A stretch of DNA of 64,000 bases, taken from Aneurinibacillus aneurinilyticus ATCC 12856. Its GTDB lineage: Bacteria; Bacillota; Bacilli; Aneurinibacillales; Aneurinibacillaceae. Location: the NCBI RefSeq assembly GCF_000466385.1, contig NZ_KE952693.1, positions 1 through 64,000 of the forward strand, in the 5' to 3' direction. The notes under the pieces were generated by a model that saw only the letters and a list, made by a program, of their open reading frames with translations, had not been told where the DNA came from and did no database searches. Shown here piece after piece: positions 26,539-62,660 of the stretch. How positions within the stretch are numbered: the stretch's first letter is position 1; each line of letters opens with the position of its first letter. The position numbers were made by a program, and so were the translations under genes.

Positions 26539-26790
26539 GTCAGGTATCTGCTCTCCCTACAGAATTTTTCTATATGTAATTATAATACTGTTTTACCAAG
26601 TAAGCGAGATGGGAAGGAATTTAGAACATAGATTTTTATTACTACAGATGGAGTATGTATATAGTCTATTATAAGGAAATGCAAGTCGTGGCTATATTGG
26701 GAAGCGCTTTCTGAAAAATACCCTTGCGGTATAGCATTATTTTGTATTTCATGTTATGATTGGCTCAATTTCAATTGCATAATTAAGCTT

Positions 26791-26985
26791 TGCGGTGCCT
26801 GAATTTTCGACATTTTGCAGTATGTTGAACTGGAAGGCATAATAGGGAAGTCGGTGCAAGTCCGACGCGGTCCCGCCACTGTAATGAGAGGAACTTTGCC
26901 AGTGCTATACCCACTGTTTCGCCTGTGAAATGGGAAGGGTGGACAAGGTTTGCTTACTCTAAGCCAGGAGACCTGCCGTGAAGAG
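26791..26985 (+). promoter_or_regulatory. Cobalamin riboswitch
   Basis: Conserved elements appear in order: GCGGTGCC (26792-26799), GGGAAGTCGGTGCAAGTC (26845-26862), CGCGGTCCCGCCACTGTAA with the B12-box-like GCCACTG, and AAGCCAGGAGACCTGCC (26961-26977). This is the adenosylcobalamin aptamer. A terminator 90 bp further on suggests that transcription is stopped when cobalamin binds. It controls the cbiMNQO-cbiH... operon, i.e. cobalt import and corrin synthesis are turned off when the product is plentiful. Confidence 0.95.
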
Positions 26986-27074
26986 CAACACTGTCAGACC
27001 ACGCGGATGGGTAGGTGTTCGAAGGGGCATATACAGGCTATATACATTAACCATTGTGCACTTTTGTCTACCTG

Positions 27075-43771: not shown

Positions 43772-44434
43772 CTATTGCCGCTCTGCCTTTAATTGCTGTA
43801 GGGCTTCTTCTACCTTTACATTTCGTTCCTCGTTCCGCATTTGCTCTTCTAGGGAACGATATGTAGGACGCATATAGCGGGTTGCTTCCGCCTCTGTTTC
43901 CATCATCATTACCCGTTCTTCGATGCGAGAAAAGCCTTTGGCGGCGTTCTCCGTATCGATAGAATACAAAGCGTAATTCATCTGTTTGCTTGCACGCGCT
44001 GCATTGGCACGGGCCAGCAGGGTTGCTTTTTTATTTCGCATTTCATAGAATTTATCTTTTAGCTCTTGCAGCTGTTCACGTAACAGAATGGTTTGCTGAC
44101 GTGCGCTCTCATATTGCTGCTGGTACTCTTCTTTTTTGCTATCGCAGATGAGCTTGTCTTCCAATGCGCGCCGGGCAATTGATTCATCCCCGGATTCTAC
44201 TGCTAGACGTGCCTGGCGTTCCCGTTTTTCGCTACGGGCTTCGGTTTCCTCAAGCATCATCTTCCATTTCTTTTCGACCGCAATTTGACGGGCGATAGCA
44301 AGCTCTGCTTTTGAAATTTCACTTTCCATATCTCTCATATACTGATTAAGCATCGCTACCGGATCTTCCACATGATCAAGTACTTGGTGCATTGTCGCTG
44401 TTGTAATATCACGTACGCGTTTGAACAGGCTCAT
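43772..44434 (-). CDS. pspA: PspA/IM30/LiaH family membrane-stress protein
   Basis: 220 residues from ATG 44434, with AGGAGGG upstream. MSLFKRVRDITTATMHQVLDHVEDPVAMLNQYMRDMESEI is the PspA start; the rest is one long coiled coil (EARSEKRERQARLAVES, KKEEYQQQYESARQQTIL). PspA coats damaged membranes and stops proton leakage. It overlaps the neighbouring small membrane protein gene by 4 bp. In Bacillales such a pair resembles liaI-liaH, though no LiaRS genes are present here. Confidence 0.9.
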   Translation of the reverse strand: MSLFKRVRDITTATMHQVLDHVEDPVAMLNQYMRDMESEISKAELAIARQIAVEKKWKMMLEETEARSEKRERQARLAVESGDESIARRALEDKLICDSKKEEYQQQYESARQQTILLREQLQELKDKFYEMRNKKATLLARANAARASKQMNYALYSIDTENAAKGFSRIEERVMMMETEAEATRYMRPTYRSLEEQMRNEERNVKVEEALQQLKAERQ

Positions 44435-44724
44435 CGGCTTGTCCCTCCTTGATTCATTTCTTTTTCCCATAAATCAATTTCATCGGCATGATGTGTCGTC
44501 TTGGTTTCGAATGGATGGTGTGGCATCATATCATGAAATGGGTTCGATGGCGGTTGCGTCGGTCTCTCTCCTTGTGCTCTCTTAATGATATTCCAGCCTA
44601 CATAGATGAAGAGCCCGGCGATAAACAGTGGGATGAGAAATCCGAGGTTTAAAATGCCTAACATCATAACTGAACCTATGCCCACCATCCCCATTCCGAA
44701 GAGGTAGGAGCCTTTCTTCCTCAT
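44431..44724 (-). CDS. Small membrane protein paired with PspA (LiaI-like arrangement)
   Basis: 97 residues from the second ATG (44724, AAGGAGG at 7 bp). N-terminal membrane helices (YLFGMGMVGIGSVMML and LGFLIPLFIAGLFIYVGW), then a cytosolic Pro/His-rich tail (PTQPPSNPFHDMMPHHPFE). It is the first gene of the PspA transcript and could be the membrane anchor for PspA. No family name is claimed. Confidence 0.7.
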   Translation of the reverse strand: MRKKGSYLFGMGMVGIGSVMMLGILNLGFLIPLFIAGLFIYVGWNIIKRAQGERPTQPPSNPFHDMMPHHPFETKTTHHADEIDLWEKEMNQGGTSR

Positions 44725-44874
44725 GTACATGCCTCCTTTTTCTTTTTGTTTTGCGTGTTCTGCTCTTGTCTATATAATATCCTGGCTAGAATCTTCGCAT
44801 AACGGGCGGTCGTTTGATTTTCACTACGTCCCAAGACGGAGAAGGAAGTCGGCCTTAAGTCAAATGCAACAAAT

Positions 44875-44904
44875 TTCACTTTTCATTTTTCCGACAGGTA
44901 TAAT
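44875..44904 (+). promoter_or_regulatory. Promoter of the Mn-riboswitch transcript
   Basis: A perfect -10 TATAAT at 44899-44904, with TTCACT at 44875-44880 as a weak -35 (spacing 18). The aptamer begins about 40 bp further on. Confidence 0.55.
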
Positions 44905-44948
44905 ATAATGAGTATAGGTACAATATGAGGACATGGATGCCTCGCATA

Positions 44949-45058
44949 TAAGGGGAGTAGCTACCGGACATGCGCCGGTCAGCATATCGTCAATACAGCG
45001 GCATGTTCCCGCTCGGTATGCTGAGCCCATATTTTTACGTAGGGTAAGCAAGACCTTC
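44949..45058 (+). promoter_or_regulatory. yybP-ykoY (manganese) riboswitch aptamer
   Basis: Conserved pieces of the family appear in order: AAGGGGAGTAGC (44950-44961), hairpin CCGG...CCGG, the loop TCGTCAATAC (44987-44998), a CAGCATA...TATGCTG stem (about 44980-45023) and, at the end, AAGCAAGACCTT. The short 5' AAGG can pair with the 3' CCTT to close helix P1. Mn2+ binding in this family stabilises P1. The 3' half overlaps the terminator below, so it should work as an on-switch. Confidence 0.85.
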
Positions 45059-45104
45059 ACATTCTTTCAGATTTTTCTGGAGGTGTGTGAAGGTCTTTTT
45101 TTGT
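45050..45104 (+). terminator. Riboswitch-controlled terminator
   Basis: AAGACCTTCACA (45050-45061) pairs with TGTGTGAAGGTCTT (45083-45096), followed by TTTTTT. The left arm is also the 3' strand of the aptamer's closing helix; the two structures exclude each other, as in known transcriptional Mn switches. Confidence 0.88.
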
Positions 45105-45143
45105 TAATTATATTACAAAATGTGGAAAGAAAGGTTGTGAACG

Positions 45144-45833
45144 ATGACCTGGAAGCAGATTGTTCCGCTCATGGAACAGGTGAAGATTACAGCGGTCGGC
45201 GACAATGAATTGGTACATGTCGTATATGTACCGGAGGGGATAACATGTGTAGGAATCGGTACGGATGCGGCAGTTTTCGTGCATATGGAATATCCGCTTT
45301 ATGCGTACAAGGTGTACGCTCCGGGAAGGGAAAAGAAATTGGAGAATGAAGAGAAAGCCTACCGGACGTTGGGTGAGAATCCATACTTCCCTCATTTTTA
45401 TGGTAAAGGAACCAACTTTATTGTACTGAGCTATGAACAGGGAACGAATCTGTATGATTGCCTTATTCAAGGGATATATATTCCGAGAAGCGCTGTCAAA
45501 CAGGTGGATAAGGCGATCCAATACGCACGTCAACGAGGACTGAATCCGAGGGATATTCACTTGAAAAATATTATTCTTCAGGATACCGGTATACGGCTTA
45601 TCGATGTGTCGGAATATGTAAGGGAGGGAAATGACAGACGTTGGGAGCACCTGAAAGAAGGATACCGGCTGTTCTACCGCTTTATTTCTCGCAAGAAAAT
45701 TCCGCGTCCGGTAATTGAGTTTGTGAAGAAGCGGTATGTAAAACAGCAAGGTCCTGGCTTTTCGGTTAAGGCGTTTGGCGCTTCGTTATTCCGAAAACTG
45801 TTTCGTGGTAAGGAAAGGAACTTCTCGCTGTAA
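45144..45833 (+). CDS. Protein-kinase-like protein (YrzF/Kdo-kinase-type fold), Mn-riboswitch controlled
   Basis: The 229-residue product contains a kinase-like core: YAYKVYAPG (candidate ATP Lys), RTLGENPYFPHFYGKG, the catalytic-loop form NPRDIHLKNIIL, and IRLIDVSEY in the place of the metal-binding DFG. Both acidic residues and the catalytic loop are retained, so activity is possible. The N-terminal lobe is short. B. subtilis has similar small proteins (YrzF, YbdM). It is the first gene downstream of the Mn riboswitch and precedes an EcsC-family gene by 27 bp. Confidence 0.72.
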   Translation: MTWKQIVPLMEQVKITAVGDNELVHVVYVPEGITCVGIGTDAAVFVHMEYPLYAYKVYAPGREKKLENEEKAYRTLGENPYFPHFYGKGTNFIVLSYEQGTNLYDCLIQGIYIPRSAVKQVDKAIQYARQRGLNPRDIHLKNIILQDTGIRLIDVSEYVREGNDRRWEHLKEGYRLFYRFISRKKIPRPVIEFVKKRYVKQQGPGFSVKAFGASLFRKLFRGKERNFSL

Positions 45834-45860
45834 AAACATAAATGAAGAGGAGTAGAGCGT

Positions 45861-46694
45861 ATGGACACATGTGGTTATTTGCAGGAAGAACTGGAAAAGG
45901 TGAAAAAGTGGGAAAATGAACAGAAAGATTTATGGTTTTGGGAAAAGCTGGGCCGTATTCCGTTTACGCTGCTCGATCGTATTACTCCAGCCTTCATACA
46001 TGAGAAAATCGGTCAGGCGCTGGATGAAGTAGGAAGCTATATTCAGACAGGCGGAAGATATCTCATTAGTGAGCGGGAAGTATTGGCGCGCTTTCCGATG
46101 CAATCTTCGAACGGTAGCGTGTTGCGGGAAGTGCTTCAGATAGGAGATGTTGCGGAACGCCCGCTGCAGGATATGGATAAAGTAGCTGAAGAACTGCAAA
46201 ACTCGCGTAAAAAGATTGCAATTTTTCAGGGAGCAACAACCGGAATCGGGGGGATTTTCACACTCGCAGTCGATATTCCGGCATTGCTCGGACTGTCACT
46301 GAAGGTATTGCAGGAGATTGCTATTGCATACGGATATGATCCGAAAGAGCGGGAGGAGAGGCTGTTTATTGTTAAATGCATGCAGTTCGCCTCCTCTGAT
46401 GTAGTCGGTAAGCAAGCGATTATTGATGAATTGTCTGCGTATGAGGAGGGACAGAAAAATACGCATACGCTGTCCCAGTTGCAGGGTTGGCGCGAGGTCG
46501 TGCTGGCATATCGGGATAACTTCGGCTGGAAAAAGTTATTTCAAATTGTGCCTATAGCTGGTATTGTATTTGGGGCTTACCTGAACAAGTCTACAATCGA
46601 AAATGTGGCTGAAACAGGCATGATGCTTTATCGTAAACGCCGCATCATGGAAAAGCTTACGCATGCATCCCCTGAATCTGGACAAGAGGTATAG
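45861..46694 (+). CDS. EcsC family protein
   Basis: 277 residues. The EcsC core is seen at about residues 110-260: EELQNSRKKIAIFQGATTGIGGIFTLAVDIPALLGLSLKVLQEIAIAYGYDP, and later VPIAGIVFGAYLNKSTIENVAETGMMLYRKR. This is a hydrophobic, Gly-rich protein associated with membranes. EcsC family members occur beside many functions and their activity is unknown. As the second gene in the riboswitch transcript it should rise with manganese. Confidence 0.8.
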   Translation: MDTCGYLQEELEKVKKWENEQKDLWFWEKLGRIPFTLLDRITPAFIHEKIGQALDEVGSYIQTGGRYLISEREVLARFPMQSSNGSVLREVLQIGDVAERPLQDMDKVAEELQNSRKKIAIFQGATTGIGGIFTLAVDIPALLGLSLKVLQEIAIAYGYDPKEREERLFIVKCMQFASSDVVGKQAIIDELSAYEEGQKNTHTLSQLQGWREVVLAYRDNFGWKKLFQIVPIAGIVFGAYLNKSTIENVAETGMMLYRKRRIMEKLTHASPESGQEV

Positions 46695-46717
46695 GGAAAA
46701 CTCATGGTTGCCTAAAA

Positions 46718-46746
46718 AAGGTGGTTCCATCAAATGGAACCACCTT
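46718..46746 (-). terminator. Terminator of the minus-strand micro-gene
   Basis: AAGGTGGTTCCAT and ATGGAACCACCTT form a perfect 13-bp stem with a 3-base loop. The T run (TTTTTT) exists only on the minus strand, so it ends minus-strand transcription; it may also stop the EcsC transcript by its stem alone. Confidence 0.85.
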
Positions 46747-47048: not shown

Positions 47049-48065
47049 ATGGAATGGAGCCTGGCAATTATTATATGTTTGTTAGTAGCATTTTTTATAT
47101 TACTTAAGCGAAGTCGCAATTCCAAAAGGGCAACAAGAAAATCAGAAACAATAAAAGTTCCGCGTCGCAGCGTTCCAGAAAGTTTTAAAAAGCCGATTCC
47201 GAAACAATTGGGCTTGCTTCCCCATGCTCCGTTGTATGAAATGGCGGGGCGGTTGGATGGCGTGATGGATGGCGAATTTGGCCGGTTGGTTAAGACGAGA
47301 GTGATGGCCAAGCACCCGGATTGGACGGAAAAAATGTACAGTTGGATTTTATTTGAGTGGAAACGGTATTTTTTGATGGCGTCGTTGTATAAATCCGTGC
47401 CGATGTACAGCGAGGATGTGGATGAAATCTGGCATGAAATGCTGATGTTTACACGTGAATATGAAAAGCTTTGTGTATCTGTAGCAGGTGAGATGATTCA
47501 CCATGAGCCGAATATCGAACGTAAACCAGATTCTGAGGAACGCGCGCTTTTCGATGTAATGTACAGTTTGTTATTTGAAGTGCAGTCTGCTAGCTGGGAT
47601 ATATGGGGGAACTTCTTCCGCTCGCCGCTGAGCCGGGAGACAGCTCGCAGGTTAAGCGAGAGAGGGGAGGCTGATATTCATGCCATGCTATTTCGTAACC
47701 ATCCAGTCGTAGCGGAAGCAACCCGTCATTTGGCTGATCGTTTGCATGAAATGCTGAAGGAAGCTGCTTCTAATTCATCAGACTTTGCCAGGAAAGCGAA
47801 GAGCAAAACCCATTATGGTAATCTGGAGAAAGTAGCGGTGGTAGTCATTCTGTATTCGCTGTTGAGCACAACGGATTTCGAAAGAGAAATACAATTTATG
47901 CTGGGCATGGAAATACAGAGTAAAGCCGCGGCTTCCGGCGCTGCAAGCTCCGGCTGCTCAGCGTATACGTCCGGTGGAGGTAACAGTTGCAGCTCAAATA
48001 ACGATTGTAACGATAGCGGAGGAAGTAGTTGCGGAAGTAGTTGTGGTGGCGGTTGCAGCAGCTAG
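47049..48065 (+). CDS. Membrane-anchored protein with Cys/Ser/Gly-rich tail
   Basis: The 338-residue product is anchored by an N-terminal helix (LAIIICLLVAFFILL, residues 5-19) and then positively charged. The middle has VPMYSEDVDEIWHEMLMFTREYEKLC, like the core D-x-x-WH of the glycine-rich-domain (GRDP-type) family, an unproved similarity. The last 45 residues are Ser/Gly-rich with six Cys (GCS, SCSS, DCND, SSCGSSCGGGCSS). GAGGAGGCG precedes ATG. Function is unknown; the C-tail may bind metal or form disulfides. Confidence 0.65.
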   Translation: MEWSLAIIICLLVAFFILLKRSRNSKRATRKSETIKVPRRSVPESFKKPIPKQLGLLPHAPLYEMAGRLDGVMDGEFGRLVKTRVMAKHPDWTEKMYSWILFEWKRYFLMASLYKSVPMYSEDVDEIWHEMLMFTREYEKLCVSVAGEMIHHEPNIERKPDSEERALFDVMYSLLFEVQSASWDIWGNFFRSPLSRETARRLSERGEADIHAMLFRNHPVVAEATRHLADRLHEMLKEAASNSSDFARKAKSKTHYGNLEKVAVVVILYSLLSTTDFEREIQFMLGMEIQSKAAASGAASSGCSAYTSGGGNSCSSNNDCNDSGGSSCGSSCGGGCSS

Positions 48066-60172: not shown

Positions 60173-60265
60173 GGAGATGTACCCAAGTCCGGCTGAAGGG
60201 GACTGACTCGAAATCAGTTAGGCGTCTTGCGGCGCGCGGGGGTTCGAATCCCTCCATCTCCGCCA
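60173..60265 (+). tRNA. tRNA-Ser (anticodon CGA)
   Basis: 93 nt including CCA. Acceptor GGAGATG/CATCTCC, anticodon loop CTCGAAA with anticodon CGA (reads UCG), a long variable arm as in class II tRNAs, and GGTTCGAATCC T-arm. A TTGACA lies at 60152-60157, too close to be the -35 unless transcription starts inside the tRNA; the promoter may be further upstream. Confidence 0.95.
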
Positions 60266-62387: not shown

Positions 62388-62660
62388 TTGTCGCACTAGA
62401 CGGGGAGGTAGCGGTGCCCTGTACCCGCAATCCGCTGTAGCGGGGTTGAATTCCTGTCTGAGGTGCGCTTCATGTGGGGTCAGGTCTGTGTAAGTGGTGT
62501 TGAGAGCTGGGTCCTGCGCAACGGGAACCCATGAACCTGGTCAGGTCCGGAAGGAAGCAGCCATAAGTGGATCCTTCCGTGTGCCGCAGGGCAGCCTGGC
62601 TTGAGCTAACTGCACGGGGCCGCCTGGATGTGCGTATCGACGACAGGTGTGCGGCTCTAT
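62388..62660 (+). ncRNA. ffs: Signal recognition particle RNA (long Bacillus type)
   Basis: The helix-8 core is present: CCTGGTCAGGTCCGGAAG then GAAGCAGCCATAAG (62537-62569), with the GGAA tetraloop. The 5' end (GTCGCAC) pairs with GTGCGGC near 62648-62654, closing the Alu-type fold, and internal CCCTGTACC-type sequences fit the long, about 270-nt SRP RNA. It guides membrane proteins with Ffh. No dnaX follows. Confidence 0.95.

Follow-up and report, generated by a model that had tools for sequence, protein, structure and literature searches.

A yybP-ykoY riboswitch precedes a small protein-kinase-like gene in Aneurinibacillus and other Bacilli

The Locus

The window is the whole stretch of DNA that was analysed, 64,000 nucleotides from Aneurinibacillus aneurinilyticus ATCC 12856. 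It contains a riboswitch of the yybP-ykoY class, followed on the same strand by an intrinsic terminator, a gene for a small protein-kinase-like protein and a gene for an EcsC-family membrane protein (Table 1). The two genes are separated by a gap of 27 nucleotides, and ecsC is probably co-transcribed with the kinase gene. The hairpin after ecsC is the likely end of the transcription unit. Promoter-like sites are not commoner in the scanned region than in shuffles, so the site upstream of the aptamer is weak alone; its position fits.

Table 1. Features of the riboswitch-led unit, in window coordinates.
Feature	Position	Strand	Evidence
Promoter-like site (TATAAT in each of two overlapping readings)	44875..44909	+	Consensus scan, 10/12
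yybP-ykoY / Mn2+ riboswitch aptamer, P1-P4	44946..45060	+	RF00080, R1, R2, covariation
Intrinsic terminator (expression platform)	45050..45103	+	-29.8 kcal/mol alone; 5/5 genus leaders
Small protein-kinase-like protein, 229 aa	45144..45833	+	ORF; family profile against PDB; Foldseek; invariant residues
EcsC-family membrane protein, 277 aa	45861..46694	+	PF12787, 260.5 bits, E 2.1e-77
Hairpin after ecsC (AAGGTGGTTCC..GGAACCACCTT), likely end of unit	46718..46746	+	Read directly; 46710-46744 still matched in A. danicus

Divergent from this unit, on the minus strand (43772-44730), are a PspA/LiaH-family gene (PF04012, 148.5 bits) and a gene for a 99-residue membrane-like protein. A 338-residue protein with a Gly/Ser/Cys-rich tail at its end and no Pfam match is encoded at 47049-48065 on the plus strand. 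Another genome (G007, locus L016) has PspA beside a second kinase paralogue and a split EcsC. At the Rfam gathering threshold the whole window yields a cobalamin riboswitch (26776-26994), a large SRP RNA (62391-62654) and a tRNA (60173-60262); the yybP-ykoY aptamer is not listed by that scan.

The Kinase-Like Protein

The first-pass annotation described the first gene as encoding a kinase-like protein with retained catalytic residues. The residues are indeed retained: K56, E69, D137, N142 and D154 are invariant in all 19 aligned relatives. They are taken here to be the VAIK lysine, the alpha-C glutamate, the catalytic aspartate, the asparagine and the DFG aspartate, so that the K/E/D/N/D set of Hanks-type kinases is present. 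The kinase label itself needs qualification, since the protein lies far below the Pfam Pkinase cut-off and its HRD and DFG motifs read PRD and DVS, without the HRD histidine or the DFG phenylalanine and glycine. Pfam gives sub-threshold matches only (WaaY, 16.4 bits; Pkinase, 14.7 bits against the PF00069 cut-off of 31.7), and the best relative tested reaches 30.2 bits.

Against the PDB, the family profile scores best with Ser/Thr protein kinases (lowest E 1.1e-7). An AlphaFold2 model built from 10 rows has a pLDDT of 76.7, and all 50 Foldseek matches listed for it are kinase-fold entries, with TM scores of only 0.34-0.49 by query length. Judged from residues and predicted fold, phosphotransfer activity is likely. 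The likeness to Hanks-type Ser/Thr kinases lies in the invariant residues and, probably, in this predicted fold; the differences are the small size of about 200-230 residues, the short C-lobe, the lack of PASTA domains, the PRD/DVS motifs and the score under the Pkinase cut-off. Among B. subtilis proteins the likeliest relative is presumably YrzF. That species has the Hanks-type kinases PrkC, PrkD, YabT and YrzF (PMC12747378; papers are cited here by PMC number from excerpts).

The strongest alternative accepts the switch as described below and makes the protein a small-molecule, lipid or sugar kinase, or else a pseudokinase scaffold. Its weak profile matches include the WaaY/RfaY heptose kinase, KdkA, RIO, ABC1 and Bud32 besides Pkinase, and both the altered motifs and the PAP2 genes linked to the kinase in relatives suit such a protein. 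The PDB matches to Ser/Thr protein kinases and the invariance of the five residues weigh against it. This alternative is a serious contender, with a chance somewhat short of even.

A phage origin is rejected for both the kinase and the EcsC gene, for which PHROGs gives no families. PADLOC returns only weak general kinase matches for the kinase (PD-T4-6, best E 3.8e-5) and PDC-S29 for EcsC (3.1e-12), from which no role in defence follows. In one genome of the wider survey, five more weak matches to the kinase profile are clustered (G254:C1:4406240-4423294).

The Aptamer

The full set of yybP-ykoY parts can be read directly from the sequence. The 5' strand of P1 with loop L1 is GGGGAGTAGC, P2 is ACCGG/CCGGT, P3 has the internal loop TCGTCAATAC, P4 is GCCC/GGGT, and the 3' strand of P1 is GCAAGACCTT. 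L1 and the internal loop of P3 are the metal-site loops.

The Rfam model RF00080 was scanned against 44880-45150 (271 bases). It matches 44940-45114 on the plus strand over its full length (model 1-177), with 29.4 bits and E 1.4e-6. A match to this model had been named in advance as the check on the riboswitch, and the full-length match was obtained, but at a score under the curators' gathering score of 45 bits, which is no structural definition. A search of the whole genome with RF00080 leaves the window copy unlisted, whereas the direct scan matches it. The genome has three yybP-ykoY copies, of which the other two precede TerC genes. Across 15 genomes of the order, RF00080 gives 30 matches at E <= 0.001; two pass the cut-off and 28 fall below, and many of the latter lie 5' of TerC genes, as judged by the look of the translations. 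The cut-off is therefore a poor guide here. As set in Rfam release 15, it keeps the majority of this order's Mn riboswitches out of default scans, which may make the link between switch and kinase easy to miss.

Homology within the class was assessed with a covariance model, R1, made from the five kinase leaders of the genus only. Applied to the window together with 61 loci, it returns 38 matches: the five kinase leaders, and TerC-type leaders with E from 1.5e-13 to 9.9e-6. The window aptamer scores 139.5 bits with R1 and 84.0 bits with a second model, R2, being a training row of both. R1 misses the leader of one genome of a neighbouring family (G014), which RF00080 and R2 both match.

The helices also covary. 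In 32 distinct rows, two-sided changes affect 21 of the 28 pairs, 96.6% of 796 cells are paired, and the covariation score is 0.454, compared with 0.158 for shuffles and at most 0.106 for slid versions, in an alignment fitted to the model and thus biased towards it. This alignment was used because P3 is one column out of register in the mixed MAFFT alignment (A2), on which RNAalifold does not show the helices. A P1-P4 four-way junction with covarying helices places the RNA in the yybP-ykoY class. The aptamer is real: the motifs first noticed are borne out by the sequence, by R1 homology and by covariation.

The loops are conserved as well. L1 (GGGGAGUAGC) and L3 (UCGUCA, with an invariant A) are present both in the window and in all 24 kinase-linked leaders described below, one of which has CCGTCA. 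L3 of the window reads UCAAUAC, compared with UCA41AUUC in the L. lactis riboswitch, where N7 of A41 contacts Mn2+ (PMC6754395). At the L1 and L3 positions the aptamer agrees with the canonical members aligned to it, also at the adenosine of TCA that contacts Mn2+.

The window thus resembles RF00080 members in its P1-P4 helices, in both loops and in a terminator that competes with P1. It differs in its score and in its target, which is a protein-kinase-like gene instead of an exporter, TerC, UPF0016 or P-type ATPase gene. A variant of the class might sense another divalent metal, such as Ca2+, Ni2+, Co2+ or Fe2+, or lack selectivity. The low Rfam score would suit such a variant, and one pneumococcal riboswitch of this class has a higher affinity for Ca2+ than for Mn2+ (PMC9495176). 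The agreement of L1 and L3 with canonical members, down to the contacting adenosine, makes it improbable.

The Expression Platform

The terminator consists of a 13-pair stem and an inner 8-pair stem (45050-45097), followed by a T run to 45103. Its 5' strand includes the entire 3' strand of P1.1 (45054-45057). The terminator and P1.1 of the aptamer are consequently mutually exclusive, as the first reading of the sequence had it, and a platform exclusive with P1 is what the yybP-ykoY class has. In studied members the logic is anti-termination, with P1.1 stabilised by Mn2+ (PMC6754395). In ViennaRNA the terminator state has an energy of -64.8 kcal/mol, compared with -51.9 kcal/mol when the aptamer pairs are forced. 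Since the terminator is favoured by about 13 kcal/mol at full length, switching must be kinetic.

Aptamer and terminator also precede the kinase gene in four more genomes of the genus. The terminator is intact in all five leaders, and compensatory pair changes are found among them.

In some linked-kinase leaders (L071, L073, L075 and L078-L086) the aptamer is separated from the gene by two tandem hairpins with T runs. The first of them takes up the 3' strand of P1; the second is separate, strong and terminator-like, and is possibly a second control layer.

The Switch and the Kinase in Other Bacilli

All seven genomes of the genus have the kinase, and five have the switch upstream of it; in the other two (loci L008 and L009) no switch is present at the kinase. 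The kinase-family profile (A6) and R2 were searched in 398 Bacilli genomes drawn evenly from the class. A6 matches in 194 genomes and R2 in 304. A same-strand Mn riboswitch lies just upstream of the kinase in at least 24 of the 194 kinase-bearing genomes, made up of five from the genus, two from a neighbouring family (G013 and G014) and 17 from a comparison by script. The linked genomes belong to nine families (f1, f2, f4, f15, f33, f44, f46, f52 and f58). The initial observation of an Mn-type riboswitch before a kinase-like gene, unlike the usual TerC and exporter targets, is therefore a recurrent one.

Coverage of the 194 genomes was of three kinds: 108 were compared by script, 13 of the order were taken from their loci, and 73 were inspected by eye or had no R2 riboswitch. 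The scripted comparison set 170 riboswitches against 136 kinase matches. Seventeen riboswitches lie upstream on the same strand within 5 kb (128-1126 bases from the profile match), one lies on the opposite strand, and none lies downstream of a kinase. About 0.07 would be expected by chance within 2.5 kb, assuming random placement in a 3.8 Mb genome, and chance placement is rejected for these 108 genomes. The CGTCA core is retained in each of the 24 linked leaders, and in each the aptamer is followed by a hairpin in which the 3' strand of P1 is used again.

The kinase can do without the link, because about 170 of the 194 kinase-bearing genomes, including the two of the genus, are without a linked switch. 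Families f5, f17 and f23 show no link in the 28 genomes compared by script.

The EcsC Gene

The match to PF12787 spans the whole profile (1-240 of 240) and places the second gene in the EcsC family, as first annotated. The likeness to the family is thus a full-length domain; the difference is that the gene is not conserved with the switch.

EcsC might nevertheless be the regulated effector, with the kinase gene as its passenger, or the two might form an obligate pair. It is the better-defined family, it follows closely on the same strand, and it stands beside the kinase in three genomes. EcsC follows the kinase in three of the five switch-led loci of the genus; in the other two, switch and kinase stay. 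In A. danicus EcsC is a decayed remnant: 3' of the kinase, blastn recovers collinear pieces of it and of the end hairpin (window 46042-46082, 46597-46662 and 46710-46744). In A. thermoaerophilus it is not found 3' of the kinase. Outside the genus, tblastn detects EcsC in none of 19 linked loci. Conversely, R2 matches nothing within about 1.5 kb at six EcsC loci elsewhere in the order (L094-L099). EcsC as effector or obligate partner is accordingly very unlikely, and its standing as a co-selected partner is rejected.

The switch tracks the kinase and not EcsC, and ecsC is a variable passenger of the unit. The suggestion that EcsC is a matched membrane partner of the kinase is therefore not supported. 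The broader suggestion of an undescribed manganese-dependent function fares differently in its two halves: recurrence strengthens the idea of a manganese-led kinase, and the EcsC half is unsupported.

Proposed Mechanism

The leader is best explained, with good though not full confidence, as a transcription switch that Mn2+ turns on and that controls a small protein-kinase-like enzyme. The kinase would be the selected target, while ecsC rides along. Both Mn2+ as the ligand and the ON direction are assigned by analogy with studied members of the class.

In this model, without bound Mn2+ the terminator would capture the 3' strand of P1 and transcription would stop at about 45103. Mn2+ bound between L1 and L3 would stabilise P1.1 and block the terminator. 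The kinase-like gene, and here also ecsC, would then be transcribed.

That the riboswitch is instead a non-functional relic of a lost TerC or exporter gene is scarcely credible: these genomes usually have TerC as the target, and in two of the seven genomes of the genus no switch stands before the kinase, but the five genus leaders combine compensatory pair changes with intact terminators, and the same link occurs at 19 other loci.

Origins of the Link

In a tree of 43 kinases, the five rows of the genus form one clade (95/99) nested among switch-less kinases. The other 19 linked rows fall in a separate subfamily; because rows were chosen for being linked or for contrast, the 19 of 23 in that subfamily are no frequency. 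A single clade of all 24 linked kinases is rejected by the AU test (p 1.6e-84). Since these kinases do not form a single clade, two or more origins of the link are probable, and at least two placements of the switch are the simplest reading. The tree alone is also compatible with a linked ancestor shared by both subfamilies and later loss of the switch.

Operon Forms and Possible Roles

The linked kinases occur in several operon forms. The kinase lies directly 3' of the switch in the genus, in seven f4-g76 genomes and in G312, G192 and G219. A 125-residue ORF that overlaps the aptamer precedes the kinase in G219 and is probably spurious. A DUF6376 lipoprotein gene comes before the kinase in G064, G183, G201, G299 and G352, as found by tblastn of the lipoprotein (PF19903, E 8.3e-39 in L075). 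Spo0M (1.1e-21) takes this place in G104 and in G254, the latter assigned by likeness. In G014 a PAP2-like gene precedes the kinase with a 4-base overlap, and in G013 the order is TerC, DUF6376, PAP2, kinase.

With TerC and PAP2 as neighbours, the kinase may have a role in the envelope. As a guess, the kinase may adjust envelope or Mn-homeostasis proteins, because linked operons of relatives hold genes for TerC, a PAP2 phosphatase and a DUF6376 lipoprotein. A wider proposal is offered tentatively, as something rather less than an even bet: in Bacilli, Mn2+ riboswitches would have been placed at least twice before one small protein-kinase family, so that free Mn2+ sets the kinase level. An RNA metal sensor would then feed protein phosphorylation, within an Mn-led envelope module that includes TerC, PAP2 and the DUF6376 lipoprotein.

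Known Mn riboswitches control exporters and metalation factors. The targets of yybP-ykoY RNAs are described as transporters and tellurium resistance genes (PMC3766115). MeeY (YkoY) is a TerC protein of B. subtilis under an Mn riboswitch, which supplies manganese to envelope enzymes (PMC10550928). The kinase resembles it in being riboswitch-led; TerC moves Mn2+ to exoenzymes, whereas the kinase would be a signalling output. No kinase under yybP-ykoY was found in the excerpts searched, which include PMC3766115, PMC9495176, PMC10898510, PMC6754395, PMC12747378, PMC10550928, PMC12452182 and PMC10043782, the gene tables of the founding papers (Dambach 2015, Price 2015) being outside this scope. Within those excerpts, then, the riboswitch class is known and a kinase as its target class is not described.

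If kinases are indeed a recurrent target, manganese status would be coupled to phosphorylation signalling. Such a link, testable in culturable Bacilli, would also offer a way into the study of an uncharacterised kinase family and of the DUF6376 lipoprotein.

Related arrangements occur at other loci. Operons led by an Mn riboswitch at L061:1493-2797 and L060:1665-4429 have genes for a DUF6376-like lipoprotein and a PAP2-like phosphatase, with or without TerC and the kinase, and are read as a shuffling Mn-led module. At L033:1680-1958 and L048:1687-1968 the first gene after the Mn riboswitch encodes a basic, membrane-like protein of 92-93 residues, which in L048 is followed by TerC.
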